NCBI GenBank assembly: GCA_947498785.1
Contig: CANMLS010000032.1
Location: forward strand, 1-64,000
Direction: 5' to 3'
From: an uncultured Aquimarina sp.
GTDB taxonomy: Bacteria; Bacteroidota; Bacteroidia; Flavobacteriales; Flavobacteriaceae
Length of the DNA stretch: 64,000 bases
Shown: piece after piece, positions 9,801 to 60,214 of the stretch
Position numbering within the stretch: position 1 is the stretch's first letter
How the letters are laid out: each line of letters opens with the position of its first letter
Translations under genes and position numbers: made by a program
Notes under the pieces: generated by a model
Seen by the model: the letters and a program-made list of their open reading frames with translations, nothing else
Told to the model about the DNA's origin: nothing
Database searches by the model: none

Positions 9801-9815
9801 AATCGTTTATCTTAA

Positions 9816-30418: not shown

Positions 30419-30452
30419 ATACTGATGTATGTAGGAATTAATACATTTGTTT

Positions 30453-32603
30453 ATGTTGAGATTTTTACGAAAACTAATTACATATAACTTCTTTATATTC
30501 TGCTTTATACTTAAAGCTCAGATAAAAGAAGACAAGTCTTTACGTCTTTCAACAAGCACAAATATCGAGTATAAAGAAAAAAAACGCATCGATAAAGCGT
30601 ACAAACATCTCAATAACAACAGAGAAAAAAAAGCATATATTATTGCGCAAGAATTATTAAAAAAAACACTCGACAATCGTTCCAAAACTAATGTGAATTT
30701 ACTTTTAGGGCATTATTTTAATTCGAGACAAATAATTGATTCTTCTTTGTTTTACACAAAAAAAGCATTAAAAAACAATAAGTTAAACAAAAATGACTCG
30801 CTAAAAAACAGAATTTATGGCTTAGGCTATAATTTACTTGCTATCAACTATAAAAGAAGAGGATTACTAGAAGAAAGTAGAAAATGGCATCGTAAAGGAA
30901 TTGATATTTCTCAACGGTTTAAAGACAAAAATCTTTTTTACATTCACACGCATGGGCTTGCACTTACACAAAGTGAAATGGGAGATTATAAAAATGCTTT
31001 AAAACTATTCAAAGAATGCTTAACCTACAAAGAAGATCCAGCAATCATTTATGGAAGTTACATCAATATTGGTAGCATTTATGCAAAACTCAATGACTAC
31101 AAATCTTCTAATGATTATTATCAAAAAGCTTTAAAACTTAGTCTAGAAAAAGAAAACTATCACGCTATTGCAGTAATCAAGATAAATCTGGCCATAAATT
31201 ATCAAGAACAAAAAGAGATTGACAAGGCTACTTCTCTATATAATGAAGTAATAGTATTATCAGAAAAAAAAGAATACAAACATCTTTCATTAATTGCTCG
31301 ACTTAATATTGGAAGTGTTTATAAAGATTTAAAGAAATATAATGAAGCAGAAATCGCATTTTCTTCGGCGTTGGATGAAGCTATTACCTTAGGTTATCTT
31401 GATGATCAAAAAGTAATCTATGATAATCTGAAAGAGATTTTTATTGCTCAAAACGATTATAAAAAAGCATTTAAGTTTGTAACAAAAGCTTTTAAAATCA
31501 AAGATTCTATTAATAAACTACAAAGTGATAAAGAGATTAATGAACTCGAAGTAAAATATAAAACTTTACAAAAAGAAAAAGAAATAAAAGTACTGCAGGT
31601 AGAGAATCATAATCGAAAATTAGAACTTAAAAACCAGAACGAAGCTATTAAAAACCTCAAATTGAAGCAAGAAGTAGAAAAGAAAGAAAATGAATATAAA
31701 ATTTTATCTTTTCAGAATGCTTCAGAAAAAAAACTGAATGAAATTACTTTGTTAAAAAAAGATCAGGAAATTCAGGAAACTAAGTTGATTAGACAAAAAA
31801 GTATTAAAAATACAATTTTGTATTCCTTTTTGATATTACTTATCCCTGTTATCAGTTTGCTGTTTACGTATTATCAGAAACTTCAAACCCAGAATGAATT
31901 AAACAAAAAGCAAGAAGAAGTCAGTGAACAAAAAATTTCGTCATTACTTAAAGATCAAGAATTAAAACTAATCAAAGCATCTATAGAAGGCCAGGATAAA
32001 GAGAGAAAACGTATTGCCGAAGAATTACACGATAGTATTGGAGGAAATCTGGCTGCTATAAAATTACAACTTAATAACCTTACTACTAGTAATAAAGAAG
32101 ATTACTTAAAAACCATTAACTATCAAATAGATGACACCTATGAGCAAGTGCGAAGTCTTTCTCATAATCTAACTCCTAAAAAATTTAGTAAAAATAACTT
32201 CTGTGAAGTACTCGAAGAATATTTTAATAATATAGGCAAAAGCAGTAGTCTTAATACTTCATTTGTAGTATATCCCAGAATCGAAATTGATTTCTTAGAG
32301 GAAATATTACAAATCGAAGCTTTTAAAATTATTCAAGAATTAATCACCAATACAATCAAACATTCAAAAGCTTCCTCTGTCGAACTTCAATTGAATCTAG
32401 TAGACAACACATTGAGCATATTATTTGAAGATAATGGTATTGGCTTTAATCCAAAAAATAATACCGACGGAATCGGCTTTGAAAATATAAAAAGTAGATT
32501 AAAAAAAATTTATGGAACTTTTTATATTGATTCAAGAATTAATAGAGGTACCATTATAAATATAGAAATTCCAACTTTAACAACAATCGCAAATGAAATA
32601 TAA
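30453..32603 (+). CDS. TPR-containing sensor histidine kinase (HisKA_3 type)
   Basis: This 716-residue kinase (ATG at 30453; a TTG two codons upstream is less likely) begins with a signal-like hydrophobic stretch. Tetratricopeptide repeats (about residues 30-350) follow, forming the periplasmic sensor, then a charged coiled coil, a membrane helix (about 448-470), and the kinase core. The phospho-accepting His is near residue 526 in AEELHDSIGGNLAA, and the ATPase boxes EALKIIQELITNTIKHS-like and DNGIGF, GIGFENIKSRL are present. It overlaps the LuxR-type regulator gene by 11 bp, which pairs them. Such TPR kinases are common in Bacteroidota; the signal is unknown. Confidence 0.92.
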   Translation: MLRFLRKLITYNFFIFCFILKAQIKEDKSLRLSTSTNIEYKEKKRIDKAYKHLNNNREKKAYIIAQELLKKTLDNRSKTNVNLLLGHYFNSRQIIDSSLFYTKKALKNNKLNKNDSLKNRIYGLGYNLLAINYKRRGLLEESRKWHRKGIDISQRFKDKNLFYIHTHGLALTQSEMGDYKNALKLFKECLTYKEDPAIIYGSYINIGSIYAKLNDYKSSNDYYQKALKLSLEKENYHAIAVIKINLAINYQEQKEIDKATSLYNEVIVLSEKKEYKHLSLIARLNIGSVYKDLKKYNEAEIAFSSALDEAITLGYLDDQKVIYDNLKEIFIAQNDYKKAFKFVTKAFKIKDSINKLQSDKEINELEVKYKTLQKEKEIKVLQVENHNRKLELKNQNEAIKNLKLKQEVEKKENEYKILSFQNASEKKLNEITLLKKDQEIQETKLIRQKSIKNTILYSFLILLIPVISLLFTYYQKLQTQNELNKKQEEVSEQKISSLLKDQELKLIKASIEGQDKERKRIAEELHDSIGGNLAAIKLQLNNLTTSNKEDYLKTINYQIDDTYEQVRSLSHNLTPKKFSKNNFCEVLEEYFNNIGKSSSLNTSFVVYPRIEIDFLEEILQIEAFKIIQELITNTIKHSKASSVELQLNLVDNTLSILFEDNGIGFNPKNNTDGIGFENIKSRLKKIYGTFYIDSRINRGTIINIEIPTLTTIANEI

Positions 32604-33240
32604 TTTAATTATTGTAGACGATCATAAAATGTTTTTAGACGGCTTGCTTAGTATACTCAACTCAGAAGATGAGTATAATATTTTACTAACCGCCAAAGAT
32701 GGAAAACATATAGCAAAATACTTAGAAATTAACCCAGATGAAAGAGTTGATCTTATCATCACAGATATTTCTATGCCCGAATTAGATGGCATTACTCTTA
32801 ATAAGATTATAAAAGAACGAAAGAAAAATACAAGAACTCTTGTAGTTAGTATGCATAACAATGCAGAAATGATTGATAACCTGATTGAGCATGATGTAGA
32901 TGGATATGTACCAAAAAATGCAGAAAAAGAAGAGCTTCTAAAGGCTATAAAAACAATATTAAAAGGAGAAAAATATTTCTCAAAAGAAATAAAAGATATA
33001 TATCTTGAAAACAAGTTCTCTAAAAAAAGACAGGAGGAAATTAAACTTACTCAAAGAGAAATTGATGTAATTACTCTAATTGCTCAAGAGCACACAACTC
33101 AGGAGATTGCAGATAAACTATTCTTAAGTAAGCATACCATCGAAAGTTATAGAAAAAACCTCATCGCCAAACTTAATGTAAGAAATCTGGCTGGGCTGAC
33201 TAAGTATGCATTAAAAATGAAATACATCAAAAATGGATAA
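32593..33240 (+). CDS. NarL/LuxR-type response regulator
   Basis: This 215-residue regulator has an N-terminal receiver with acidic pocket VDDH (residues 8-11) and phospho-acceptor Asp58 (IITDISMPE). The C-terminal LuxR helix-turn-helix is visible as LTQREIDVITLIAQEHTTQE followed by IADKLFLSKHTIESYRKNL. It overlaps the TPR kinase gene and is therefore its partner. The GC-rich operator-like motif before the kinase gene and before the following peptide gene makes both likely targets, which is an inference. Confidence 0.95.
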   Translation: MKYNLIIVDDHKMFLDGLLSILNSEDEYNILLTAKDGKHIAKYLEINPDERVDLIITDISMPELDGITLNKIIKERKKNTRTLVVSMHNNAEMIDNLIEHDVDGYVPKNAEKEELLKAIKTILKGEKYFSKEIKDIYLENKFSKKRQEEIKLTQREIDVITLIAQEHTTQEIADKLFLSKHTIESYRKNLIAKLNVRNLAGLTKYALKMKYIKNG

Positions 33241-34324: not shown

Positions 34325-35251
34325 TTATTTCTCCATAAAACCACCACCAAAACGATAACTTAATACAATCCCATGAGTATTATTTATTGGTGTACTTTTT
34401 AACGTCTGATTATAATTATATAATACTCTTAAATGATTAGAAATATAGAATCCCGCAAGAAAATTCATAGAAGAGTTTGTTCTGTATCCAGCCCCAACTT
34501 CTATTTTATTTTTATAATTAACCTTAGCATTAAAATCTGTCTGAATTGGCGCTCCAGACACATGCTTAATAAGTATACTAGGGTTTATCATAACCTCTTC
34601 AAAACGAGTTGCAAAAAAACGATATCCTGTATAGGCATAATAAGGACTTTCTATATTTACATTATCTTCTTCAGAAGATAATGAATCTCCCAATAGATTT
34701 GGTGCTGAAACACCTACATAAAAACGCTCTCTATTATAAAGTATACCGATCCCTAAGGTGGGTATAATCGTGTTAATATTATTTGCAAAATTTGGGTCAT
34801 TCTGAATTCCTAATTCTAATAGATTTTCATCATAAATCAGTATACCCCCAGTTATCCCAAAAGATAATACATTGGGATTATACGACCACCATCTAGCACG
34901 ATTATAACTACGATCAAAAAACAACTTATACGAATATGCTCCAAACAAACTTGTAGCAGTTGTAACTCCAACCTGATCACTATAAACACCTGCTCCAAGT
35001 CCAACATTTTCTGAACCCAATGGAGAGTTAAAGGTTAACCCAATATTCCTTGGGCTTCCGTCTATTTGATTTAAGTATCCCCTATTGGTAATTGTAATAT
35101 CTGCATCTGGATAAAACCCTGCATGTGCTGGATTTATAATTACGGTATTGTAATTATAATTTGCAAAAACAGGAGTTTGTTGCCCAAATATTGGGTATAA
35201 AACCCCTTTTGAAAGCATTACAACCATCAATATTATATATTTTGTTTTCAT
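34325..35251 (-). CDS. PorP/SprF-family type IX secretion protein
   Basis: This 308-residue outer-membrane beta-barrel belongs to the PorP/SprF family. Members accompany specific cargo proteins bearing a type B (CHU_C) sorting domain and help them through the type IX secretion system or onto the surface. A signal peptide ends near residue 23 (FGQ). The family start FANYNYNTVIINPAHAGF is clear, and the chain ends in an aromatic-rich strand with terminal GGFMEK. It begins 3 bp after the stop codon of the 1798-residue cargo gene, so the two form one unit. Confidence 0.93.
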   Translation of the reverse strand: MKTKYIILMVVMLSKGVLYPIFGQQTPVFANYNYNTVIINPAHAGFYPDADITITNRGYLNQIDGSPRNIGLTFNSPLGSENVGLGAGVYSDQVGVTTATSLFGAYSYKLFFDRSYNRARWWSYNPNVLSFGITGGILIYDENLLELGIQNDPNFANNINTIIPTLGIGILYNRERFYVGVSAPNLLGDSLSSEEDNVNIESPYYAYTGYRFFATRFEEVMINPSILIKHVSGAPIQTDFNAKVNYKNKIEVGAGYRTNSSMNFLAGFYISNHLRVLYNYNQTLKSTPINNTHGIVLSYRFGGGFMEK

Positions 35252-35254
35252 TAA

Positions 35255-38200: not shown

Positions 38201-40651
38201 GATAGGTGCAGAATCATTATCGGTAATAACAACATCTTGCTCTGTAGTTATTCCTAGAACAATACCTGTTGATGGATTGCTAATCGTGAGTCTTGCCGTC
38301 TCTGTACCTTCTACATCTGTATCGTCTACAATCGTAAAAGTTACTGTACCTGTAGTCATACCATCCAGAATAGTAATCGTAGTACCACTTAAAATAAAAT
38401 CTGAAGCTGTAATTCCGATTCCTGAAGCTGCAAGATCAATAGTTTGATCACCCATTACAGCTGTCGTAGAAGTGGCTGTCACTGTTATTACTGTACCAGC
38501 AGCTTCTGTACCTGTATTTGATGAAACCGAAAGATTTACTGTAGGGAGAGGTGCAGAATCATTATCGGTAATAACAACATCTTGCTCTATAGTCGTTCCT
38601 AGAACAATACCTGTTGATGGATTGCTAATCGTTAGTGTTGCCGTTTCTGTACCTTCTACAACAGCATCATCAACAATAGTAAAAGTTACAGTACCTGTAG
38701 TCATACCATCAGTAATAGTAATAGTAGTACCACTTAAAGTAAAATCTGTGGCTGTAATTCCGATTCCTGAAGCTGCAAGATCAATAGTTTGATCACCTAC
38801 TACAGCTGTCGAAGAAGTAGCCGTAACCGTGATTACTGTACCTGCAGCTTCTGTACCTGTATCTGATGAAACCGAAAGATTTACTGAAGGGGTAGGACTG
38901 AGTGTTCTTACATTATCTATATGATAAATTTCCCCTTGATTACCAACTCCGTCTTCTAGAAATAAATACACATCATAAACCGTATCAGACATAAGAGAAG
39001 AGATAATTTCCTCAATATCAGTATTAGCCAAGTCCATTAAAAAATTATCGTTAGTAGTTGCTCCAGTTCCATTTAGAATATCGTCATGATCTGGAGTTCC
39101 AGAAAAATTACCTGGATAAATGGCATAGTGTATTGTTCCTGTTTCTGGTCCATTAACAACCAATGTAAATCCTGATAAAGTCTCATCAATTGCTTGAGGG
39201 TATCCAGTATTTAATGGTATAGCATAATGATCTCCTCCAAAAACAACATAGGCTTCACCGTTCGTTGCCCTTCGGTTTCCTAGAATAAAATCAGAGATTC
39301 CATCACCATTAAAATCTCCACCTCCATCAACTGGTCTTCCACTACCTCCAGACAACCCTTCGATGATAAAACCATTGTTACCATTCAAAGTGGTTTCATC
39401 TATTGGATCGGGAAAACCTGTTGAGCTACCAAATACTACATAAGCAATTGGGTTAGAACCGTTACTACCAAAAGTGGAAACAAAATCATCAATCCCATCC
39501 CGATTTATATCACCTATAGAAGCTGCAACAGAAATCGCTGGTAAATTAAACCCATTAGAACCATTAATATCACTTACATCAAAATTAGCAGGGAAAGCAT
39601 CAGAACTACCATATATTGCAAGTCCTTCAGAAAAAATATCATCTATATTATCATTATTAATATCTCCCAACAACCCTACATATGCCAAAAAAGATCCGCC
39701 TGTATGTTGAATTGTAAACCCGTTAGATCCATCCAAAGTTCCATCAACATCAACTATAGGATCAAAAGAACTTCTTCCGAAAAGCACATGAGTGCGCTCC
39801 TGAAATGAACCTGACCCAATTGACCAATCTCCTAATATAATATCATTAAACCCATCATTATTAACATCTCCCGCACTCCCGACAAGATATGAAGCTCTCA
39901 AAGTAGATGAATATCCATCAATCCTAAAACCATTACTCCCATCTATCCAACTTTGATCAAAGGATCCAGGAAAATTACTAGTGCGTCCAAAAATGACCAA
40001 CGTATCGGTAGAAGTGAATACTGGACCTACAATAAAATCACTAATTCCATCACCATTAACATCTCCTAATCCTGCAACTTCATTGAATCTGTTACTTTCG
40101 ATAATAAAACCATTGCTTCCGTTTAAATCATTTTTATCGATACTGGCCACAAACGTACTCGAACTACCATATATAACGAGTGCATCAATATCTCCTGCAG
40201 TTATAAAATCATCAATTCCATCTCCGTTAACATCTCCAATTCCACTAATGGAACTACCAATTCTTTCTTCATTTTCTATCCCTTCAATAATAAAACCATT
40301 TGTCCCATTTAATGAAAGTATGTCAAAATCCGCACCAAAACCTGTAGAAGAACCAAAAACAACATATACTGTCCCTGCTCTTGTAAAACCGTTAAAAGAG
40401 GCATATTGTGCTCCAATAGCAATATCATCAAAACCATCATTATTAATGTCTCCAATAAAATCCACTTCTGATCCAGTCAAAGATCCATTCAATATTCCAG
40501 GGATTCTAAATCCATTAGTACCATTTAAAGTACCCAAATCAAAATTTGCTGGATAAAGCTGTTGAGCTTTGATACCACTATAAGTTAGATTAAATGCAAT
40601 AATTAACATTATAAGCTTAACTATCTGAATATTTCCTTTTATGCTTCCCAT
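35255..40651 (-). CDS. T9SS type B surface protein with FG-GAP and Calx-beta repeats
   Basis: This 1798-residue secreted protein has a signal peptide (to about residue 29). About 470 residues follow with seven FG-GAP-type Ca-binding repeats (GDVNGDGIDD-like motifs), which form an integrin-like beta-propeller. A linker follows, then nine Calx-beta repeats of 115 residues (about 587-1620), each ending in a D-TDND Ca-binding motif. A PKD-like linker (DIEAGEDQEIVQGQ) and the C-terminal gliding-motility-type domain (GYGFSPDGDGINEYW to GFLVLKR) complete it, marking it for type IX export. The PorP/SprF gene sits 3 bp downstream. A role as a calcium-dependent adhesin is an inference from these domains. 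Confidence 0.93.
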   Translation of the reverse strand: MGSIKGNIQIVKLIMLIIAFNLTYSGIKAQQLYPANFDLGTLNGTNGFRIPGILNGSLTGSEVDFIGDINNDGFDDIAIGAQYASFNGFTRAGTVYVVFGSSTGFGADFDILSLNGTNGFIIEGIENEERIGSSISGIGDVNGDGIDDFITAGDIDALVIYGSSSTFVASIDKNDLNGSNGFIIESNRFNEVAGLGDVNGDGISDFIVGPVFTSTDTLVIFGRTSNFPGSFDQSWIDGSNGFRIDGYSSTLRASYLVGSAGDVNNDGFNDIILGDWSIGSGSFQERTHVLFGRSSFDPIVDVDGTLDGSNGFTIQHTGGSFLAYVGLLGDINNDNIDDIFSEGLAIYGSSDAFPANFDVSDINGSNGFNLPAISVAASIGDINRDGIDDFVSTFGSNGSNPIAYVVFGSSTGFPDPIDETTLNGNNGFIIEGLSGGSGRPVDGGGDFNGDGISDFILGNRRATNGEAYVVFGGDHYAIPLNTGYPQAIDETLSGFTLVVNGPETGTIHYAIYPGNFSGTPDHDDILNGTGATTNDNFLMDLANTDIEEIISSLMSDTVYDVYLFLEDGVGNQGEIYHIDNVRTLSPTPSVNLSVSSDTGTEAAGTVITVTATSSTAVVGDQTIDLAASGIGITATDFTLSGTTITITDGMTTGTVTFTIVDDAVVEGTETATLTISNPSTGIVLGTTIEQDVVITDNDSAPLPTVNLSVSSNTGTEAAGTVITVTATSTTAVMGDQTIDLAASGIGITASDFILSGTTITILDGMTTGTVTFTIVDDTDVEGTETARLTISNPSTGIVLGITTEQDVVITDNDSAPIPTVNLSVSSNTGTEATGTVITVTATSSAAVVGDQTIDLAASGIGITSSDFTLSTTTITILDGMTTGTATFTILDDTDIEGTETARLTISNPSTGIVLGTTTEQDVVITDNDSAPLPTVNLSVSSNTGTEAAGTVITVTATSSAAVVGDQTIDLATTGTGITASDFILSGTTITIADGTTTGTVTFTIEDDTDIEGTETATLTISNPSSGITLGGTTTQDVDITDNDFAPLPTVSLSVSSDTGTEAAGTVITVTATSSTAVMGDQTIDLAASGIGITASDFILSGTTITIADGTTTGTATFTIVDDTDIEGTETATLTISNPSSGITLGGTTTQDVDITDNDFAPLPTVNLSVSANVGTEAAGTVITVTATSTTAVMGDQTIDLATTGTGITASDFTLSGTTITIADGMTTGTVTFTIEDDTDIEGTETATLTISNPSSGITLGGTTTQDVDITDNDFAPLPTVNLSVSSNTGTEAAGTVITVTATSSAAVVGDQTIDLATTGTGITASDFTLSGTTITIADGMTTGTVTFTIEDDTDIEGTETATLTISNPSSGITLGGTTTQDVDITDNDFAPLPTVNLSVSSNTGTEAAGTVITVTATSSAAVVGDQTIDLATTGTGITASDFILSGTTITIADGTTTGTVTFTIEDDTDIEGTETARLTISNPSTGIVLGTTIEQDVVITDNDSAPIPTVNLSVSANVGTEAAGTVITVTATSSTAVVGNQTVDLVTKGVGITSSDFILSTTTITILDGMTTGTATFTIVDDTDVEGTEMVRLAIRNPSTGIVLGTTTEQDVVIEDNDFVECDIEAGEDQEIVQGQEIQLDAVVSNPGTLTWLPSEGLNNSSIANPIASPTETTTYTLFFTGNDGCTAEDMVTVYVTPLEEDETGYGFSPDGDGINEYWEIHGIDNYPNNRVLIYNRWGDLVFETEGYNNTSRVFRGIANRKRSIGGGKLPEGTYFFDIKIEGIHNLKKETGFLVLKR
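35790..38890 (-). repeat. nine tandem 345-bp Calx-beta coding repeats
   Basis: Nine copies of a 345-bp unit (115 codons each) lie in tandem. Several neighbouring copies (for example around 36400-37100) are almost identical at DNA level, including synonymous positions, whereas the terminal copies diverge. This indicates recent duplication or gene conversion. Long open frames seen on the plus strand here are by-products of the repeats. Confidence 0.92.
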
Positions 40652-41270: not shown

Positions 41271-41285
41271 CCCCTGTTTTCAGGG
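41271..41285 (+). promoter_or_regulatory. CCCCTGTTTTCAGGG motif, site D, upstream of the SPFH/LipL32 cluster
   Basis: CCCCTGTTTTCAGGG is followed by a second GC-flanked element (GGTGTTTTCCACCCC, 41307-41321) and a -7-like CATCTTTG at 41333-41340, about 119 bp before the first gene of the cluster. The layout resembles sites A and B. Confidence 0.55.
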
Positions 41286-41458
41286 TGTTGTTTTTCACTA
41301 GAAAAGGTGTTTTCCACCCCATGCTTCTATTCCATCTTTGCACTGTGATTTTTTAGTCTCTATATCACAGCTTAACAAGTTACAGATAGTAGTATAGAGT
41401 CATTTTAAAAATCATATTAAAAGTAAAAAACAAGTACTAACCCTTAAAAACTAAAATT

Positions 41459-41881
41459 ATGACTTGGGGAATCACTTTAATTCTATTGAGTATTATAGCA
41501 GTACCATCCTTATTGCTATCTAAAAAGCCAAATGCAAAAGAACTATTAGAAAAAATCGAACCTTACCAAGGCTGGATCGGACTTGTATTCTGTTTCTGGG
41601 GGGTGTGGGGAATTATCTCTGCAGTTCTTAACCTGGGATGGCTTACATCATATCCTATCTGGTGGATAACACTATTAGCAGGTAACATTATCGAAGCTAT
41701 TTTAGGATTCATGCTAGGTTTTGGTCTAATCAATAAGTTCTTCTTATCCAAAAATGAAGCTGCTAAAGAAAAAGCGAATAAGCTTAGAGAAAAATTAGCT
41801 CCAAAACAAGGTAAACTAGGAATCTTAGGGATCATAGTAGGTTGTTGGATGATTATTGCTTCTTTCTTATTCTTTACATAA
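41459..41881 (+). CDS. small membrane protein, unknown, first gene of the cluster
   Basis: I do not recognise this 140-residue protein. It has about four hydrophobic helices (residues 2-20, 35-60, 65-90, 118-138) and a Lys/Glu-rich cytosolic loop ([19 protein letters not shown]). The compact four-helix plan resembles small inner-membrane stress proteins. It is followed by a zinc-ribbon membrane protein 64 bp downstream on the same strand, in a transcript that ends with the first LipL32-like gene. Confidence 0.75.
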
Positions 41882-41945: not shown

Positions 41946-42290
41946 ATGATCATATTCGGAACTGGTTCTTCGACAATACAACCTGAAAAATTAAATGGAG
42001 GAAGTTGCCCGCATTGTAATACACAAAACAACATGTGGATACAAGGACGTAAAAAATACTTTCATGTATTTTGGATACCATTCTTTCCTGTCGGAAAAAA
42101 AGTATATACCGTTTGTGGTCATTGTAAAGGTGCTTTTGAAAAAAGAGAAATTCAAAATCAGGAATTAATAACATCTTTTACTGATTTTAAAAATAACCAC
42201 ATCAAAACTCCTTGGTATCACTTTATAGGTTTGATCATTTTTGCTTCATTAATTACACTAATCTCAATATTACCTCTACTAGGTAAATAA
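41946..42290 (+). CDS. zinc-ribbon membrane protein
   Basis: This 114-residue protein has an N-terminal zinc ribbon (CPHCNTQNNMWI, then CGHCKGAFE; Cys pairs near residues 21/24 and 57/60) and a single C-terminal membrane helix (about residues 92-111). The pattern FWIPFFPVGKKVY between the Cys pairs is typical of the small zinc-ribbon family often found beside stress or secretion genes. Partner proteins are likely the other zinc-ribbon and SPFH products of the cluster. Its exact role is unknown. Confidence 0.78.
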   Translation: MIIFGTGSSTIQPEKLNGGSCPHCNTQNNMWIQGRKKYFHVFWIPFFPVGKKVYTVCGHCKGAFEKREIQNQELITSFTDFKNNHIKTPWYHFIGLIIFASLITLISILPLLGK

Positions 42291-42317: not shown

Positions 42318-42929
42318 ATGAAAAAACTCGTTTTTATATTATTCATAGCTATCACTCCAATTATTGCACAAGAAAATAACAAAACATTGACTATAGTTGG
42401 TGAAGCAAATAAGCAAGTAGAAGTTAGTAGTTATTTTCTCACTATTTCATTAAAACAAATCGTTGCAGATGGATACCAGCAACTAGAACCTAAGAGTCTG
42501 AGCGAAGTACAACAAATGTATAGTGATAAATTAAAAGCTATAGGAGTAGATTTTGGCAAATACAACAAAAATATTCTTTACCAATTGTACGCATCATACT
42601 CAGAAGTAAATGATGTTGTATACTACAATTACACCTCAACTTCTGAGGAAGAGATCACAAAAATCATTAATCAGAAAATGAATGGTTTAACCGTGATACA
42701 AGTAGAAGTAAATCCAAAAGAAAAAACAAATAAAGAATGGGCCAACCTAACTCTTACAGCAATTGAAAATGCTAAAACAAAGGCAAAAAAAGCTGCAGAG
42801 GGACTTGGCAAAAAATTGGGCGAAATCATAAAGATTGAAAATTCTGACACAAGCGTACAGCATATAAACATATATAAACCAGAAGAAATTCAAAAACACT
42901 TTGTAACAGTAACCTTTACTATAGAGTAA
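42318..42929 (+). CDS. secreted SIMPL (DUF541)-like protein
   Basis: This 203-residue protein has a signal peptide (MKKLVFILFIAITPIIAQ) and one domain that resembles SIMPL/DUF541: an N-terminal strand TLTIVGEANKQVEVSSYF and the C-terminal helix AIENAKTKAKKAAEGLGKKLGE followed by IIKIENSD. SIMPL proteins occur in the periplasm or outer membrane, and some affect oxidative or membrane stress; the biochemical activity is unclear. It sits between the zinc-ribbon membrane protein and the first LipL32-like gene with gaps of 27 and 41 bp. Confidence 0.7.
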   Translation: MKKLVFILFIAITPIIAQENNKTLTIVGEANKQVEVSSYFLTISLKQIVADGYQQLEPKSLSEVQQMYSDKLKAIGVDFGKYNKNILYQLYASYSEVNDVVYYNYTSTSEEEITKIINQKMNGLTVIQVEVNPKEKTNKEWANLTLTAIENAKTKAKKAAEGLGKKLGEIIKIENSDTSVQHINIYKPEEIQKHFVTVTFTIE

Positions 42930-42970: not shown

Positions 42971-43654
42971 ATGAAAACAAAAATTTTAATCGCAATAGCA
43001 GTACTTGCTTTTGGAAGCACTTTTAATGCTGAAGCACAAAAACTAAAGAAATTTGGTAGCTCTGTTGAAAAAAAGATTGGACCAAAAACTATAAAAGTAC
43101 CGTATACAGATATAGTATCATACATGGGATACGCTGCACCAGGAAATGAAGATGAAGTAAAAGATGGAAAAAAATTCTACTATATATATGTTTGGATTCC
43201 TGCAGTTGCTCCAGAATTAGGAGTCAGAATGATGTCTCCTGTAGGCAAAACTAAAATAAAAAAGGCAACAAAATCTGCAGCATACACAGAAAACGCTGGT
43301 TCTAGTGATTATTTTGATACTTATATAACTCTAGAACGATCTGACATTACTAGCAAAGATAATATTAGCGAAAGTGCTGCAAAAAGTGCTAACTGGGTAA
43401 CATTAGAACGTAATGATGATAGTAGCGAAATGCCTAAGCAACCTAGTGGAAGTGGATACAACTCACTATTGAGATACAAAAGTGAAGCAAGCAATCCTAC
43501 CAAAGCTTTAACCGTTGGATTATATCGTATTGGTTTTACGACATATAAAACTGGTGAAGTAAAGGGTACATTCTTAGCAGAAGTTGCAGCTCCTATAAAA
43601 CTTCCAGGAGTGGTTATGGCAAAAACTATAGCAGACCTAAAAAAGGGATTATAA
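42971..43654 (+). CDS. LipL32-like secreted protein, copy 1
   Basis: This 227-residue protein resembles LipL32, the major surface lipoprotein of Leptospira. Shared segments, compared with my memory of LipL32, include YYIYVWIPAVAPELGVRMMS (residues 74-93), the FDT-I-ERSD stretch, YNSLLRYK, and GLYRIGFTTYKTGEVKGTF near residues 182-200. The signal peptide ends AEA-Q and there is no Cys, so it would be a soluble secreted or periplasmic protein rather than a lipoprotein. Part of the Asp-rich Ca-binding loop of LipL32 is reduced to NDDSSE. A second paralogue lies at 47242. It closes the first transcript of the cluster before a strong terminator. Confidence 0.85.
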   Translation: MKTKILIAIAVLAFGSTFNAEAQKLKKFGSSVEKKIGPKTIKVPYTDIVSYMGYAAPGNEDEVKDGKKFYYIYVWIPAVAPELGVRMMSPVGKTKIKKATKSAAYTENAGSSDYFDTYITLERSDITSKDNISESAAKSANWVTLERNDDSSEMPKQPSGSGYNSLLRYKSEASNPTKALTVGLYRIGFTTYKTGEVKGTFLAEVAAPIKLPGVVMAKTIADLKKGL

Positions 43655-43683
43655 TATATAAATTGGAATATTGATCTCTATGA

Positions 43684-43733
43684 TGGTTATTCCTATATTT
43701 TTTAATCCAAAAATATAGGAATAACCACTTTTG
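43684..43733 (+). terminator. terminator after LipL32-like copy 1
   Basis: Nineteen-base arms (43684-43702 and 43709-43727) with a short loop are followed by CTTTTGTT. A similar ATTCCTAT-containing terminator follows the second LipL32-like gene, so the duplication probably included it. Confidence 0.88.
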
Positions 43734-43768
43734 TTACTCTCATTTTTCTAAAACTCACTATTCCAAAA

Positions 43769-43969
43769 ATGGAAGACAATAACCACCAAAAAAAGAAAAA
43801 AGAAAAAAATATTTTGGACGACATTCTAGCTAATGCAGTTTCTTCTACCAAAAAACATGAAGAAACAAGTGCTGGTCTGGAAACTAAAAAATGTAAAAGT
43901 TGCGGAGCAGCCAGACCCGATGATACAGACCTTCGGTATTGTGATTTCTGTGGAGATCAATTCTATTAA
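43769..43969 (+). CDS. small zinc-ribbon protein
   Basis: This 66-residue cytosolic protein has a Lys-rich N-terminus (NNHQKKKKEKNILDDILAN) and a C-terminal zinc ribbon CKSCGAARPDDTDLRYCDFC (Cys at about residues 42, 45, 58, 61). It lies 20 bp upstream of the next zinc-ribbon gene and forms the head of the SPFH transcript. I take it to be an adaptor subunit of the same complex. No enzymatic motif is present. Confidence 0.72.
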   Translation: MEDNNHQKKKKEKNILDDILANAVSSTKKHEETSAGLETKKCKSCGAARPDDTDLRYCDFCGDQFY

Positions 43970-43989
43970 AAACATAACTCTTTACAACT

Positions 43990-44754
43990 ATGTCTTTTAG
44001 TAAAACACAAAATAGATGGGATGGTTTTCTCAAAAAAATTGAAGAACGATTTCAAGAAGTATTAGAAAAAACTGAAGCTGCATTACCTCTATTATTTGAA
44101 GCGACAGATTTTGAAACGACTACCTTTAGTAACGCCTGGCAAGGAATTTATTCTCAAGCTAGTGATTTGATTTATAAAATAAATGATACCTGGGATGAAA
44201 AAGTTGAAGAAGCTTTTGAAAATGCAGGAATAGATTTTGGTTCGGATCAATTTAATCAAGAAAGAGATAAAGGGTATCGAATCCAATTTGAATTAGAACA
44301 AAAACTAAAATCATACGAAGTCAAAATATTTGCAAATGCAGCAAAAAAATTAGTACAACAAGTACAGGATATATTATCTAACGATTTTTGTTGTTCGCAA
44401 TGTCAGGCAAAACTTCCTGTGAAAAGTAATTTTTTTAGATCTTACTATAGTACATGTGAGTATTGCCAAACTGTAAACACATTTGAACCTGGAACCAAAG
44501 CAAGGAATATAGAACACTTTGCTATCCACGCTTTGGGAGAAGAAGCTGCACTACAATACTATCTGAGCTACGAGGAGCTTAAGTTTCAAAATTACCTAAA
44601 AGATAAAGACATCCATAAAAAAGAGGAATTAGATGCTCAATATCAAAAATATGTAGAGACCTACCTTAAAAAAAGAATTGAAATTATCCCTGACTATAAA
44701 GATCGCTATGAAAAGGATCTTAAAGCTAAGACAGCATTTTTAACTAACTATTAG
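43990..44754 (+). CDS. zinc-ribbon coiled protein, unknown
   Basis: I do not recognise this 254-residue soluble protein by name. It is mostly charged helices, with a zinc ribbon in the middle (CCSQCQAKLPVKS, then CEYCQTVN; Cys around 137-141 and 157-160). The gene is 20 bp before the SPFH gene, so the two are almost certainly translated together. The arrangement of a zinc-ribbon protein with an SPFH protein resembles the Bacillus YdjG/YdjI pair, but sequence similarity was not tested. Confidence 0.7.
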   Translation: MSFSKTQNRWDGFLKKIEERFQEVLEKTEAALPLLFEATDFETTTFSNAWQGIYSQASDLIYKINDTWDEKVEEAFENAGIDFGSDQFNQERDKGYRIQFELEQKLKSYEVKIFANAAKKLVQQVQDILSNDFCCSQCQAKLPVKSNFFRSYYSTCEYCQTVNTFEPGTKARNIEHFAIHALGEEAALQYYLSYEELKFQNYLKDKDIHKKEELDAQYQKYVETYLKKRIEIIPDYKDRYEKDLKAKTAFLTNY

Positions 44755-44774
44755 TAATTCTTAAACAAACAGAT

Positions 44775-45824
44775 ATGTCAAATTCATTTAGTAATCAACT
44801 ACGTTCGGTAATCGAATGGCAAGATCCAAAACCTGAAACTCTTTTTGAAAAATGGACAGAAGATGGTGACGAGATTAAAAATGCATCAAAGTTAATTGTA
44901 GGTCCAGGGCAAGGGTGTCTTTTTGTATACGAAGGAAAAGTAGAAGGTTTTTTTGAAGAAGAAGGTCTTTATGATCTTAAAACAGGAAATATTCCTTTTT
45001 GGACTACGATCAAGAATATCATGTATAAGTTTGAGTCTGCTCATAAAGTAGGTATCTTCTTTTACAGAAAAGCTGAAATGCAAAATATACGTTGGGGAAC
45101 TCCTTCTCCAATTACATATAAAGATCCAGTTTATAATTTTCCTGTAGGGCTTGGCGCCTTTGGAAACTTTTCTTTTAAAATTACAAGACCTGTTGATTTT
45201 TTTAGAAGTGTGATTGCTGGTGATGATTATTATCCTGTAAAAGCAATACAAAAAGTTATTCTATCTAGAATTACCCAGCCTATAAGTGATTTTCTTGCCA
45301 ATGCATCTTTTAGTTATACAGAAATTGATAAACATCGTAATGAAATTGCCTTGTTTTCTAAAGATTCATGTACCCAGATTTTTGACGAATTAGGATTTGA
45401 ATTACTTGATTTTAGAATAGAAGGTACCAGTTTTGACGAAGAAACCAAAACAAGAATAGGAAGAATTGCAGATATGAGTGCAGAAGCTCAGGCAATGAAA
45501 GAACTTGGTGTTAGCTATCAGGATTACCAACAACTTGAAGCTTTAAAAAATATGGCAAAAAATGAAGGAGGAGGTAATATTGGTATGCAAATGGGAGCTG
45601 GATTAGGAATGGGGCAAATGTTAGGGAACATGATGAATAATCAGAATAACCAAAACCAAGGGCAACAAGCTTCGCAACAACAATCTTCACAACAACAAAA
45701 CACTCCTCCACAAAATGATGATCCCATGCAAAAATTAGAAAAATTAAAAAAAATGTTTGATGCTGGATTCATTGATGAGCAAGAATACAAGCAAAAAAAA
45801 CAAGAAATATTATCTCAATTTTAA
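44775..45824 (+). CDS. SPFH-domain protein with SHOCT tail (YdjI-like)
   Basis: This 349-residue protein has an N-terminal SPFH/band-7-like domain of the YdjI type (about residues 5-235; GPGQGCLFVYEGKVEGFFEE, later WGTPSPITYKDPVYNFPVGL). A Gly/Met/Gln/Asn-rich linker follows (about 260-310), then a C-terminal SHOCT helix (MQKLEKLKKMFDAGFIDEQE). There is no transmembrane segment, so it would assemble on the membrane surface. In Bacillus, YdjI recruits PspA to sites of membrane stress. The Gln/Asn stretch suggests oligomerisation. It is the hub of the transcript 43769-46955. Confidence 0.85.
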   Translation: MSNSFSNQLRSVIEWQDPKPETLFEKWTEDGDEIKNASKLIVGPGQGCLFVYEGKVEGFFEEEGLYDLKTGNIPFWTTIKNIMYKFESAHKVGIFFYRKAEMQNIRWGTPSPITYKDPVYNFPVGLGAFGNFSFKITRPVDFFRSVIAGDDYYPVKAIQKVILSRITQPISDFLANASFSYTEIDKHRNEIALFSKDSCTQIFDELGFELLDFRIEGTSFDEETKTRIGRIADMSAEAQAMKELGVSYQDYQQLEALKNMAKNEGGGNIGMQMGAGLGMGQMLGNMMNNQNNQNQGQQASQQQSSQQQNTPPQNDDPMQKLEKLKKMFDAGFIDEQEYKQKKQEILSQF

Positions 45825-45854
45825 AAACAAAATCAATCCTAAAAATTAAATACT

Positions 45855-46955
45855 ATGAGTACAGTACATACGTTTTCAGATCACGATAAAACAGAACAAG
45901 GACAAAAAGCAATTGCTTTAGGCATTCAAATAAAAAATGGTATTGGTTCAGAAAATTACGATTATACACGTCAAGAGGCTGCAGATTTTACTTGGCCAAA
46001 TATAGATCAAGATAAAATTGGTTATATCGAACCGTGGTTATGTTATCAAAAAAATCCGGATGGTACTTTAGGAGGTTGGATAGATTTAAATGAGTTTTCA
46101 GATGGTACCGAAAGAAAACTTAATGCTTGTTTATTAAGGCTCGGATTTCCTAAAGAATTAGGGGAAGTGTATGAAAACATTAAAGACATATTAAAACAAA
46201 TTCAGAATAGTGAAGATTTTGAAACTACTGCTCGAAAATATGGCTTTAAGAATAATGAGCAATTTTCTATTAGAGACCATGTAGATTCTGCTAATGTGAA
46301 ACTGAAAAAATCAGAATCCAAAGCATATGATGCAGCAGATGATCTCTTAAAAGAACAAAAAGCGAAGTTGGATGCTCAAATGGATGCGCATATAGAAGCT
46401 GCAGAAGCTGGTGGATTATTAGATCCTATTTCGGGAATTGATATGGAAACCTGGGCTGCCGCTAATGCCAAGATCGCTGGTGGCATGGATCTAGAAGAAG
46501 TATTAAAAGTGGTAGGAACCGAAAAACCAATCTGGGACGAGGTCTCTGCAGAATGGACTGCAAGAATGTCACAAGATACTACTTTTGCTATATCAAAGGT
46601 ATACGGAGATGCATTTATGAATTCAAATATAGGAAAGTTTGCTAGTGAAGAAACTAATCAAGATTCAGCTCCAAGCTCTTCAAATAACAACGGTGGTTTA
46701 AATGCTGTATTAGAAGATTTTGAGCTTTACATCAAAATCATGTGTCATCAAAACATGGGAGCAGCACAAGGAAAAGATGCTGCTTCAATTCTACAGGAGT
46801 ATGGGCTTACAGTTACTGATTGGAGTTCTGTAGGAGCACACTGGTCTTCAAAAATGGCAACAGATACTCGTATGGCACTTCAGATGGGTGAACTTATGGA
46901 AAAATACAATGCAGAATTTGCATCAGCAAAAGCAGGTGATGATATAGATTTTTAA
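45855..46955 (+). CDS. protein with duplicated helical module (DUF6620-like)
   Basis: This 366-residue soluble protein matches what I recall of DUF6620 only weakly, so treat the name as tentative. The first 110 residues hold a GWIDLNEFSDGTERKL segment. The C-terminal half has two copies of a helical module, about 195-260 (GIDMETWAAANAKIAGGMDL) and 290-357 (LEDFELYIKIMCHQNMGAAQ), each with a Trp-Ser/Ala-W-(T/S)-x-(R/K)-M-(S/A)-D/Q-T motif. It follows the SPFH gene by 30 bp and is the last gene of the transcript. Role unknown. Confidence 0.7.
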   Translation: MSTVHTFSDHDKTEQGQKAIALGIQIKNGIGSENYDYTRQEAADFTWPNIDQDKIGYIEPWLCYQKNPDGTLGGWIDLNEFSDGTERKLNACLLRLGFPKELGEVYENIKDILKQIQNSEDFETTARKYGFKNNEQFSIRDHVDSANVKLKKSESKAYDAADDLLKEQKAKLDAQMDAHIEAAEAGGLLDPISGIDMETWAAANAKIAGGMDLEEVLKVVGTEKPIWDEVSAEWTARMSQDTTFAISKVYGDAFMNSNIGKFASEETNQDSAPSSSNNNGGLNAVLEDFELYIKIMCHQNMGAAQGKDAASILQEYGLTVTDWSSVGAHWSSKMATDTRMALQMGELMEKYNAEFASAKAGDDIDF

Positions 46956-46969
46956 AAATTAATATAACA

Positions 46970-47041
46970 GATGACCCGTGGTTTGTTGAATTCCCATAAC
47001 ACTACAATTAACAACCATAATGGTTTCGGGTCATCTTGTTT
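46970..47041 (+). terminator. terminator of the SPFH transcript
   Basis: GATGACCCG (46970-46978) and CGGGTCATC (47027-47035) form the base of a long stem-loop, with a smaller CCATAATGG hairpin inside. TTGTTTTT follows. Confidence 0.8.
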
Positions 47042-47241
47042 TTGAATCTTTTTAAAAAAACAACACTTTGTAAATTATTAAAAATCAAATAATTAACAAT
47101 ACAACTATAATTCTCATTAAAAAGATTCATATTTGTACGACTGATTATTTCAATACATTTAATAGAATATTTGGTAAAAAATTTAATAAAATAGTACGTG
47201 TGTCTTACTAATCATTAATAACTATAACTAAATCAATTATT

Positions 47242-47925
47242 ATGAAAACAAAAATCTTAATTCTACTAAGCATATTCGCTCTAGGAACATCTATTAATAC
47301 TCAAGCTCAAAAACTAAAGAAATTTGGAGGTTTAACTGAAAAAAAAATTGGTCCTAAGACCATAAAAGTACCTTATACTGATATAGTATCTTATCTTGGA
47401 TATGCTTCTCCTGGTAATGAAGATGAAGTAAAAGATGGAAAGAAATTTTACTATATCTATGTTTGGGTACCTGCTGTAGCACCAGAACTAGGGGTAAGAA
47501 TGATGTCGCCAGTAGGAAAAACTAAAATAAAGGGGGCTACTACATCTACAGCATATACAGAAAATGCAAGTTCTAGCGACTTTTTTGATACTTATATTAC
47601 ATTAGAGCGTTCTGATATTGTAAGTAAAGATAAAATCAGTGAAGAAGGTGTAAAAAGCGCAAAATGGACTATATTAGAACGTAACGATGATAGTAGTGAA
47701 ATGCCTAAACAGCCTAGCGGAAGTAGCTATAATTCATTATTAAGATATAAAAGTGAAGTAGGTGATCCTCTTAAAGCATTAACAGTTGGGTTATATCGCA
47801 TTGGTTTTACCACATTCAAAACTGGTGAAGTAAAAGGAACATTCTTAGCACAAGTTGCAGCTCCAATAAAATTACCAGGAGTAGTAATGGCTAAAACTAT
47901 TGCTGATTTAAAAAAGGGACTATAA
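47242..47925 (+). CDS. LipL32-like secreted protein, copy 2
   Basis: This 227-residue paralogue of the protein at 42971 has the same length and about four-fifths identical residues by eye. It repeats the LipL32-like segments YYIYVWVPAVAPELGVRMMS and GLYRIGFTTFKTGEVKGTFL. The signal peptide ends INTQA-Q with no lipobox Cys. It has a 286-bp upstream region of its own after the SPFH terminator, so it is an independent unit and may be regulated differently from copy 1. Its terminator resembles that of copy 1. Confidence 0.85.
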   Translation: MKTKILILLSIFALGTSINTQAQKLKKFGGLTEKKIGPKTIKVPYTDIVSYLGYASPGNEDEVKDGKKFYYIYVWVPAVAPELGVRMMSPVGKTKIKGATTSTAYTENASSSDFFDTYITLERSDIVSKDKISEEGVKSAKWTILERNDDSSEMPKQPSGSSYNSLLRYKSEVGDPLKALTVGLYRIGFTTFKTGEVKGTFLAQVAAPIKLPGVVMAKTIADLKKGL

Positions 47926-48009: not shown

Positions 48010-48504
48010 TTAGAAAGATAATTTAGCTTTCATCTTTTCAACAATATTAAATGCTGCTGGACATATGGCAACATTTTTTAACGTCAAATTAGATATTTGT
48101 TGAATTTTTTTACGATCAGTATGTGGGTATTCGCGACAAGCTTTTGGTCTCACTTCATAAATACTACAATAATTATCTGCTCCAAGAAAAGTACAAGGTG
48201 TCTCTTGTAAAATCAAATCTTTATCCTCATCCATTTGTAAATATTGTTCTTCAAACTGTCTGGGTTTTATTTTTAAAAATTTTGCAATTCGTTCTACATC
48301 CCTATCTGTAAACAATGGACCAGCAGTTTTACAGCAATTCCCACAGGATAAACAATCAGTAATATTAAACTCTTCATCATGCAAGTCTTGCATGATAAGA
48401 TCTAACTTTTTGGGAGGTTTTTTTTTGAGTTTAGCAAAGAACTTTTTGTTCTCGTTATGTTTATCTTTGGCCAGTTGCGGTAATTGATCAATAAATTCTT
48501 GCAT
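48010..48504 (-). CDS. YkgJ-family cysteine-cluster protein
   Basis: This 164-residue protein has the Fe-S or zinc cysteine cluster of the YkgJ/UPF0153 family: CLSCGNCC (about residues 57-64), then CTFL, YCSIY and RPKACREYP. The cluster very likely binds metal; the reaction is unknown. The start lies 57 bp from the divergent methyltransferase start. Confidence 0.85.
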   Translation of the reverse strand: MQEFIDQLPQLAKDKHNENKKFFAKLKKKPPKKLDLIMQDLHDEEFNITDCLSCGNCCKTAGPLFTDRDVERIAKFLKIKPRQFEEQYLQMDEDKDLILQETPCTFLGADNYCSIYEVRPKACREYPHTDRKKIQQISNLTLKNVAICPAAFNIVEKMKAKLSF

Positions 48505-51576: not shown

Positions 51577-52269
51577 TTAAGAGCCACTTAAAAATGACAA
51601 CAAAGTATTTTTATAGGTTAGACTTATTGGGATATGCATTTTTTTAATTTCTACATACTCCTTTGTATAAGTTTTTATTTTCTCTGTATTTACTATATAA
51701 GATTTATGTATACGCATAAAAGATTGCGATGGTAACCTTAATATAAGATCACTCATTTTTTCATACACAACCAAAGTATCTTCTATCGTATGAATTTTTA
51801 CATAATTACTTAAACCCTCAATATAAAGTAGCTCCGAAAAATTAATTTTAACCATTTTCTTATCTGATTTGATAAAAATATGATCAACAGCAGCTGGGGA
51901 ACCTATTATATTAGAAAATTGAGGGGTGATTTTATGAATTGCTTTTAAAAAACGATCAAAAGAAAAAGGCTTTAATAAATAATCAACTGCACTAAGTTCA
52001 AACCCTTCTAAAGCAAATTCTCGGTGAGCCGTAGTAAAAACTATTTTGACTCTGTTTTCTATAATTTTAGCAAGGTTTAAGCCCGAAAGTTTAGGCATTT
52101 CTATATCCAAAAAAATCAAGTCTACTGGATTATTTTGCAGATAATCAAGTACCTCGAGAGCATTCTTAAATTCTGCAATTAATTCTAAGTTTGATACATC
52201 GCAAATATATTTTTTTAAAATATTTCTTGCAGTTTGTTCATCATCTACTATAATGCATCGAAATTTCAT
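51577..52269 (-). CDS. LytTR-type response regulator
   Basis: This 230-residue regulator has a receiver domain with phospho-acceptor Asp55 (LIFLDIEMPK) and a C-terminal LytTR DNA-binding domain (about residues 135-228; LLYIEGLSNYVKIHT, SFMRIHKSYIVN). It follows the LytS-type kinase gene by 59 bp and is its partner. LytTR proteins usually bind pairs of direct repeats about two helical turns apart. Confidence 0.93.
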   Translation of the reverse strand: MKFRCIIVDDEQTARNILKKYICDVSNLELIAEFKNALEVLDYLQNNPVDLIFLDIEMPKLSGLNLAKIIENRVKIVFTTAHREFALEGFELSAVDYLLKPFSFDRFLKAIHKITPQFSNIIGSPAAVDHIFIKSDKKMVKINFSELLYIEGLSNYVKIHTIEDTLVVYEKMSDLILRLPSQSFMRIHKSYIVNTEKIKTYTKEYVEIKKMHIPISLTYKNTLLSFLSGS

Positions 52270-52328
52270 CTGTTTACTTTGTTATTTCAACCCGTTTTAC
52301 AACTCATTTTTTAAACATCAATACATGG

Positions 52329-53354
52329 TTAAACATTAATTTTCAATACAATAGAATACAATTTATCTTCATCTTTAATCTGTAATTCATATTCATCGTC
52401 ATATAAGATATTTAACCTCTTCTTGATGTTTTCTAATCCAATACCTTTAGGGGAAGAATCCTCTATAGTTTGTTCTGGTTTAGAATTTTTAACCTCATAG
52501 ATCAGTTGACCTTTAATTACTTCTAATTTAACAAAAATATGAGCAATCTTCGTTTCATTTTTTAAACTATGTTTGAAAGCATTTTCTACAAATGGCACCA
52601 AAATCAAAGGTGGTATAGATATCTGATTGATGCTCTCTGGGATAGCAATCTCTACCGCTACTCTATCATCAAATCGAGATTTCTCTAAGTCAATAAAATC
52701 ATTTAATAAATTGATTTCTTTCTCTAAAAGAATAAACTTTTGGGTACTCTCATAGAGAGAAAAACTAAGAAAATCAGATAATTTCAGAATTAATTCGGGG
52801 GTTTTTTTTGAATTTTCCAAAGACAACCCGTAAATATTATTTAGTGTATTAAAAAGAAAGTGAGGGTTGATCTGCGATTTCAGATATTTCAACTCTGACT
52901 GTAATTTTTCATTTTCAAGAGTTTTGGCTCGTTTTTGTAACTCTGCCACTTTCCAGATTACAGAAATTCCAATAATGAGAATTAAAGGAGAAGCAATAAT
53001 CATAGAAGTTTGGAGAAATTTATACGGTAACCACACTCCAAAATCATACAGATCAGAATAAATCAAGGATAGTATTTTATAATTAGCTATTCGTTGAATA
53101 AACCCTGCTACAATTAATGTTAATAGCGTATATGTAAAATATTTTGCTGTTTTTCCTTGTAATAAAAATTTTGGTAGTAAAACAAAGTAATTAAAATAAA
53201 CAACAATAAGTCGTATAGGCATATTCATAAGCTCAAAAGCTAATGCCTCTGTATACTTTCCTTTATAACTAGCTTCAACTATGGTAAATATAATTGTATA
53301 AACAATCCAAAAACCGATATGAAACCAGATGCTTTTAACCTTCATCATTAACAA
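52329..53354 (-). CDS. LytS/YehU-type sensor histidine kinase
   Basis: This 341-residue kinase has four N-terminal membrane helices (about residues 10-30, 42-62, 72-92, 112-134), a short coiled coil and the His_kinase domain with phospho-accepting His165 (KSQINPHFLFNTLNNIYG). The ATPase end carries PPLILVPFVENAFKHS and GIGLENIKKRLN. No separate periplasmic sensor domain is present. It pairs with the LytTR regulator downstream. Confidence 0.93.
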   Translation of the reverse strand: MLMMKVKSIWFHIGFWIVYTIIFTIVEASYKGKYTEALAFELMNMPIRLIVVYFNYFVLLPKFLLQGKTAKYFTYTLLTLIVAGFIQRIANYKILSLIYSDLYDFGVWLPYKFLQTSMIIASPLILIIGISVIWKVAELQKRAKTLENEKLQSELKYLKSQINPHFLFNTLNNIYGLSLENSKKTPELILKLSDFLSFSLYESTQKFILLEKEINLLNDFIDLEKSRFDDRVAVEIAIPESINQISIPPLILVPFVENAFKHSLKNETKIAHIFVKLEVIKGQLIYEVKNSKPEQTIEDSSPKGIGLENIKKRLNILYDDEYELQIKDEDKLYSIVLKINV

Positions 53355-59794: not shown

Positions 59795-60097
59795 CTAAAT
59801 CAATTTTCTTTTTAAACTTTTCAAACAAAAAACAAACCGTTCGAATGCAAAAGAGTATAACAATACATTAAGAACTAGTCCTCCTATGAGACCATATATT
59901 CCTTTTACAACCTCAGAATACCCAATAGCATCTGTAGGTAACTTAAATATAGCATGCAATTTCATTAAAAACTCTGTTGTGGGAGTAAAAACAAGTGTTC
60001 CTCTATCATTTGCATTTCCTAGTATGCTGCAAATTGTTGCTAAAACAAAAAGTAAAATAAATGTTACAATGTATGTATGTATATTAATCTTTTTCAT
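59795..60097 (-). CDS. small membrane protein of unknown function
   Basis: This 100-residue protein has two hydrophobic helices (about residues 8-27 and 68-90) joined by a polar loop. It has no recognisable family. The GC-rich motif copy E lies 104 bp upstream, which would place it under the same control as the peptide and SPFH genes. The 63-bp gap to the next gene is on the same strand. Confidence 0.6.
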   Translation of the reverse strand: MKKINIHTYIVTFILLFVLATICSILGNANDRGTLVFTPTTEFLMKLHAIFKLPTDAIGYSEVVKGIYGLIGGLVLNVLLYSFAFERFVFCLKSLKRKLI

Positions 60098-60200
60098 CTG
60101 TAGTTACGTATTAAAAGTTAAAATGGATTATTCTTAATACTGCGCAAGATATAGTCGTTTGGAAGTATACCAAACACCAGAAACAATGAAAACAGAGACA

Positions 60201-60214
60201 CTGAAAACAGGGAG
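60201..60214 (-). promoter_or_regulatory. CTCCCTGTTTTCAG motif, site E
   Basis: The minus strand reads CTCCCTGTTTTCAG, with a second related piece CCCCTTTTTCC at 60224-60234. The copy is less symmetric than A-D and lies 104 bp before the small membrane-protein gene. Confidence 0.45.

Follow-up and report, generated by a model that had tools for sequence, protein, structure and literature searches.

The 64,000-nucleotide stretch of an uncultured Aquimarina sp. analysed here in its whole length (contig CANMLS010000032.1; hereafter the window) comes from a genome of 5,673,872 bases (5.67 Mb) and carries two genes for proteins of the LipL32 family. Copy 1 is encoded last in what appears, from gene order and spacing, to be a tight and probably co-transcribed unit, TM140-ZnR15-SIMPL-LipL32, with a conserved 40-bp element at its head. 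We consider it fairly probable that this unit is placed through the element under a histidine kinase and response regulator encoded nearby, and that LipL32 serves there in envelope maintenance and not primarily as an adhesin. To our knowledge, this would be the first regulatory setting described for the LipL32 family, made up of a conserved two-component context, a membrane protein that recurs as partner and an element with near-fixed spacing, and it opens a functional test in non-pathogenic Aquimarina, Formosa or Winogradskyella. The genes and sites in question are the following.

30447..32603, + strand: histidine kinase with TPR, HisKA_3 and HATPase_c domains (Pfam)
32593..33240, + strand: LuxR-type response regulator with Response_reg and GerE domains (Pfam); overlaps the kinase gene
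41272..41311, + strand: 40-bp element CCCTGTTTTCAGGG-n6-TTTTCACTAGAAAAGGTGTT, proposed response-regulator site; no mismatches to a 38-base pattern; position weight matrix (PWM) score 62.0
41333..41340, + strand: -7-like promoter element CATCTTTG, its TTTG 25 bp past the 40-bp element
41459..41881, + strand: TM140, a predicted four-helix membrane protein of 140 aa with no Pfam family; commonest neighbour of LipL32
41946..42290, + strand: Zn_ribbon_15 protein (ZnR15; PF17032, E 1.8e-8), with a C-terminal hydrophobic segment seen by eye
42318..42929, + strand: SIMPL (DUF541) protein; PF04402 in 8 of 8 aligned members, signal peptide by eye
42971..43654, + strand: LipL32 copy 1 (PF12103, E 2.1e-82; predicted structure; signal peptide without lipobox)
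43684..43727, + strand: inverted repeat with 19-bp arms, 3' of copy 1; possible terminator or attenuator
47242..47925, + strand: LipL32 copy 2 (PF12103, E 1.6e-81), with a separate upstream region that lacks the element

The LipL32 proteins and their distribution

A first-pass annotation of this DNA had called both proteins LipL32-like and had suggested a profile search and a comparison of structures. Both approaches bear the assignment out. The match to PF12103 spans the whole model in each case (positions 1-179 of 179; 275.5 and 272.6 bits, cut-off 25), and the jelly-roll fold of LipL32 is predicted for the window protein, in agreement with the structures of LipL32 from Leptospira interrogans (PDB 2zz8, 3frl and 2wfk), with which it shares 47% identity over 171 aligned positions. 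It differs from the Leptospira protein in lacking the lipobox cysteine and in having a shorter acidic loop, and with 114.8 bits for one copy and 113.5 for the other, the pair misses the cut-off of 300 bits of the NCBIfam equivalog for the LipL32 major surface lipoprotein (NF038394).

The published calcium cluster of LipL32 consists of Asp132, Thr133, Asp164, Asp165 and Tyr178 (PMC5566480, PMC8951592). These residues correspond to D116, T117, D149, D150 and Y163 in the window protein, and all 44 aligned homologues share the five at this predicted site; in L058, a divergent member that the alignment does not include, most are visibly missing. Thus, the earlier impression that the calcium loop is partly lost was correct in that the acidic run is shorter, but since the cluster residues are kept, the run has merely been shortened and the site itself has not been lost. 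A signal peptide is present in both proteins, and the absence of a lipobox cysteine, noted before, was also found: the leader of neither copy contains a Cys, neither belongs to the aligned homologues that have a Cys among their first 40 positions, and by eye the leader ends in a signal-peptidase-I-like site of the ordinary type. Because of these features, the window copies are probably not lipoproteins. By these predictions, copy 1 is exported, adopts the LipL32 fold and retains its calcium cluster intact.

It had also been thought that such proteins are unusual in Bacteroidota, a view that does not stand. Members from Cellulophaga, Formosa and Ulvibacter have been in print since Gardiner et al. 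2014 (PMC4080168), as orthologs of PtlL32 of Pseudoalteromonas tunicata; like the window proteins they belong to this protein family and come from marine bacteria. Of the 56 genomes taken as relatives, 23 carry LipL32, all of them in the genus of the window, as do 16 of 397 sampled genomes of the family, representing 13 of 237 genera (own genome included in both counts). In a sample of the phylum, the single positive among 395 genomes was the own genome; the distribution is patchy. No match was obtained among the plasmids, phages or viral contigs searched. In a tree of 92 proteins, in which many inner branches are unsettled and the bootstrap had not converged, copy 1 groups with a TM140-linked copy of A. 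algiphila (support 99/90), copy 2 lies among mostly non-TM140-linked Aquimarina copies without strong support, and a third copy of the own genome joins divergent family members (100/73). Linkage to TM140, used as a label on this tree, requires 15 changes, compared with 29 in shuffles.

Gene neighbourhood and promoter element

Within the window, the gaps between TM140, ZnR15, SIMPL and LipL32 are 64, 27 and 41 bp. Terminator-like sites across the region around copy 1 are no more numerous than in shuffled sequence. The neighbourhood sample comprised 40 loci plus 72 loci that were split by hand, according to their titles, into 36 from Aquimarina and 36 others. Here L075 and L090 were put with Aquimarina (both group with Aquimarina copies on the tree, and L075 has the SPFH module described below), L088 was counted outside, though it is probably Aquimarina, and loci do not equal genomes, some of which supply two. 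With a match of 230 bits or more to the kinase of the cassette counted as presence of the kinase, the 36 loci outside Aquimarina gave TM140 in 31, the kinase in 28, SIMPL in 22, ZnR15 in 2 and SPFH in none; the Aquimarina loci gave TM140 in 30, the kinase in 17, SIMPL in 11, ZnR15 in 21 and SPFH in 20. The order kinase-regulator-TM140-SIMPL-LipL32 occurs in Winogradskyella, Formosa, Lacinutrix, Algibacter and Flavobacterium; Flavivirga has TM140-LipL32-kinase-regulator (L111/L113), and in two Cyclobacteriaceae (L134/L138) the kinase and regulator genes are divergent from LipL32-TM140. TM140 is present in 11 of 16 LipL32 genomes and in 31 of 381 others (p 1.5e-8, uncorrected for kinship). At 32 TM140 loci away from LipL32, a count that excludes the second TM140 of the own genome, the kinase was found at 14, SIMPL at 20 and an SPFH-module gene at 3. 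Given these counts with and without LipL32, TM140 looks like the hub of the neighbourhood, and SPFH looks like a secondary neighbour, seen among LipL32 loci in Aquimarina only.

Two side observations concern this neighbourhood. The second TM140 of the own genome (G000:C38:27693-28109) is of nearly full strength (263 bits), and a search for the cassette genes within about 8 kb of it gave none. A putative zinc/iron-chelating protein with a CxxCxxCC motif (window 48010-48504, - strand) stands beside LipL32 at many Aquimarina loci (uncounted).

Upstream of TM140 in many genera, CCCTGTTTTCAGGG is followed by six bases, TTTTCACTAnAAAnGGTGTT and then a -7-like TTTG; the conservation runs on through TTTCACTA..GGTGTT, and stems with GAAAAC replacing GTTTTC occur. 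By fuzzy matching, in counts that contain some genes twice, the element precedes 86 of 130 TM140 genes, 8 of 136 LipL32 genes and 2 of 69 SIMPL genes; it was found before 0 of 35 genes for CC254, an SPFH-module protein, and before 0 of 36 SPFH genes. A PWM trained solely on 45 distinct sites upstream of TM140 reached a background maximum of -0.9 in random and reversed sequence totalling about 1.06 Mb, and in the window it scores 10 or more only at 41272 (62.0) and at 60173 on the minus strand (27.3). The 38-base pattern with up to three mismatches matches the own genome twice, both times in the window, and its reversed control not at all; a looser 27-base pattern was unspecific over the genomes of the family. 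In 114 of 128 distinct sites, that of the window included, TTTG begins 25 bp past the element (distinct sites differ in the 60-bp downstream stretch, so that close relatives stay in). The spacing is consistent with an activator that binds beside a -7 box, for which the consensus in Bacteroidota is TAnnTTTG.

Among 100 LipL32 gene rows, in which at least six genes occur twice (L035/L122, L036/L087, L037/L118, L043/L130, L049/L139 and L050/L141), the element, at a PWM score of 14, stands immediately upstream of LipL32 in 9, heads a TM140 unit in 57 and occupies neither position in 34. Because the matrix was trained on TM140 upstreams, the direct cases, which lack a TM140 unit, matter: they represent 8 distinct genes from 8 genomes (three Cellulophaga, three Winogradskyella, G303 and G401, one gene being counted twice), with scores of 18.7-59.6. 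One of them, L137, looks like an internal deletion in which the unit lost its TM140-SIMPL portion and the promoter was kept, rather than an independent gain, since a remnant of the SIMPL C-terminus (VYGVTVTFELK) remains between the site and LipL32 (9700-10000).

The following features belong to the second site in the window.

60173..60212, - strand: second copy of the element; 2 mismatches, PWM 27.3, 75 bp before the next open reading frame (ORF)
59795..60097, - strand: membrane protein of 100 aa, probable second member of the regulon

All six relatives retrieved for this ORF have the element at an equal distance before its ortholog. The gene that follows (58757-59731) codes for a protein of 324 aa with no Pfam family. 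A further 36 stretches were picked by the author out of the sites listed; they hold 39 sites, of which 37 are followed on the same strand by an ORF no more than about 330 bp away (by a lenient ORF rule and without a random control); one of these ORFs is TM140 itself, and the two exceptional sites are both in L259. By eye, the recurrent targets are the 100-aa membrane protein, secreted MORN-like repeat proteins and lipoprotein-like proteins, and most candidates appear secreted, lipoprotein-like or membrane-bound.

The kinase-regulator pair

The TPR HisKA_3 kinase and the LuxR-type regulator are encoded by adjacent, overlapping genes with kinase, receiver and GerE domains. Compared with the kinase at a Lacinutrix locus (L123), the window kinase scores 558 bits, and the next best place in the own genome scores 256; it is the own genome's best match to the kinase found beside LipL32 or TM140 in other genera. 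The window regulator matches that of L123 with 320 bits. Across 52 genomes of the genus, the element was found in 33 (a match to the reversed control in 2), and when kinase matches of at least 580 bits were counted, 28 genomes had both, 3 the kinase only, 5 the element only and 16 neither (p 1.2e-6, with kinship ignored). To judge from this co-occurrence and from synteny, the regulator at 32593-33240 is the most likely protein to bind the 40-bp element.

Between this pair and TM140 (34325-40651, - strand) lie a PorP/SprF gene and a gene for an FG-GAP/Calx-beta protein of 1798 aa, which has a CHU_C type IX secretion signal and very similar tandem repeats (a substrate of the type IX secretion system). 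In Cellulophaga, a different LuxR-type regulator (L142:2139-2768) is encoded near TM140, by eye between nadE- and dnaG-like genes.

A proposed envelope role and its alternatives

Taken together, these results have led to a model in which the TPR kinase would switch the LuxR-type regulator, which would then bind the 40-bp element ending 25 bp before the -7-like TTTG of the unit promoter. The active regulator would turn on TM140, in the membrane by prediction, the exported SIMPL and LipL32 proteins, and the second locus at 59795-60097. LipL32 would act within the envelope, with the periplasm as its probable site, as part of an envelope-maintenance response; copy 2 has its own upstream region. 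LipL32 has been described as the protein that pathogenic Leptospira contain in the largest amount, with a primary function that is "largely unknown" (PMC3544172). An internal role is favoured because the Leptospira protein is reported to be subsurface and infection to be possible without it (PMC3544172), and because the window copies have no lipobox. A broader statement, which we put forward tentatively, is that LipL32 is at root an effector in a two-component regulon dedicated to the envelope, acting in the periplasm together with TM140 and SIMPL, and that its reputation as an adhesin or surface antigen in Leptospira and Pseudoalteromonas is secondary. If so, the long-unknown primary function of LipL32 could be worked out in marine flavobacteria.

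It should be noted that a number of observations weigh against this model. The kinase pair of the window lies about 8 kb ahead of TM140, with the type IX secretion gene pair in between, and in Cellulophaga the element is kept, yet the regulator near TM140 differs. The element precedes 0 of 72 kinase genes (some counted twice), and autoregulation is thus not indicated. The 34 LipL32 rows without it, three of which score 9.6-13.4, include Aquimarina second copies, copies 2 and 3 of the own genome, both Cyclobacteriaceae and divergent lineages. Five genus genomes bear the element without a kinase of at least 580 bits and three have such a kinase without the site, although in three of the former (G008, G011 and G843) a lower-scoring kinase stands just before the site or TM140. 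TM140 occurs without LipL32 in 31 of 42 TM140 genomes, and 5 of 16 LipL32 genomes lack TM140; the candidate targets in L248 and L262 look cytosolic by eye. Finally, a Cys lies within the first 40 residues in 17 of 44 aligned homologues, mostly inside the hydrophobic stretch, and rough lipoboxes can be read in a few (L109, L116 and L143), so that lipidation could occur elsewhere in the family.

The LipL32 copies could instead be adhesins for algae or animals, displayed on the surface and binding matrix proteins with the help of Ca2+. Many of the LipL32-bearing genera named are marine, which counts for such a role, as does the retention of the calcium-cluster residues. The main counter-evidence to our model is that PtlL32 mutants of P. 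tunicata bind host matrix less well, a result that favours an adhesin; the recombinant protein also binds matrix (PMC4080168). However, no lipobox or other visible surface anchor is present in the window copies, the genes that often accompany LipL32 encode a kinase, a membrane protein and SIMPL rather than surface machinery, and in Leptospira, where the protein is reported to be subsurface, a lipL32 mutant was reported to be as adherent as the wild type (PMC3544172); we regard a primarily adhesive function as unlikely. The element, for its part, might be an intrinsic terminator or another promoter feature unrelated to the kinase and regulator, with synteny reflecting an inherited neighbourhood. 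A terminator scan does flag its first half (CCCTGTTTTCAGGG plus T), related genomes are not independent, and the kinase genes themselves lack it. Nevertheless, the large gene upstream of the element in the window points the other way and leaves little to terminate, which speaks against a terminator, as do the conservation through TTTCACTA..GGTGTT, the fixed distance to TTTG and the stems with GAAAAC; in addition, gene orders vary around the element while it co-occurs with the kinase. This explanation therefore strikes us as very improbable.

A further alternative concerns the genes between the two copies.

43769..43969, + strand: small ORF of 66 aa with a CxxC...CxxC zinc-ribbon motif (translation; motif by eye)
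43990..44754, + strand: CC254, 254 aa with CxxC pairs and no Pfam match; first large gene of the SPFH module
44775..45824, + strand: SPFH (Band_7_1) and SHOCT protein (PF13421, E 5e-36; PF09851)
45855..46955, + strand: DUF6620 protein (PF20325, E 1e-10)

That the two LipL32 genes flank an SPFH gene, as first described, is correct. The module sits behind copy 1 in many Aquimarina, and between the copies wherever the module and both copies fall in the stretch. It could be supposed that the LipL32 genes and CC254-SPFH-DUF6620 form one membrane-organisation system, comparable to PspA-YdjGHI of Bacillus subtilis, a stress operon in which an SPFH protein likewise has membrane partners and whose YdjI is an envelope-stress SPFH protein (PMC8581546); PF13421 also gives matches in B. 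subtilis. The 20 Aquimarina loci with SPFH and the 3 of 32 TM140 loci with a module gene away from LipL32 agree with this. The complete absence of SPFH from the loci outside Aquimarina does not; LipL32 pairs without an intervening SPFH also exist (L084 and L085), and a far better Band_7_1 match (329 bits, compared with 126 for the window protein) is found elsewhere in the own genome. We judge a single system of this kind to be improbable, and the SPFH module, stressed in the first description, is not the partner conserved most widely: TM140 accompanies LipL32 at 30 and 31 loci of the two groups. By analogy, the module may be comparable to a YdjI-type system. It differs from PspA-YdjGHI in that its SPFH protein is only a weak Band_7_1 member, that no PspA was recognised among the Pfam-scanned proteins of the window (the rest of the genome was not searched), and that sigma-W controls the Bacillus operon, whereas a two-component system is proposed here.

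No open-access full text was found to join LipL32 with SPFH (a description elsewhere is possible); a search for LipL32 with DUF541 gave only a Leptospira DUF541 peptide in a list, in the part of the source available; and the motif core of the element matched only unrelated work on lung carcinoma. The main text of Gardiner et al. 2014 (PMC4080168) contains no mention of operons, downstream genes, neighbourhoods or synteny; the context of kinase, TM140, SIMPL and promoter element is described here. Near the SPFH region, a LytTR response regulator and a His_kinase gene (window 51577-53354, - strand) make up a separate two-component system.

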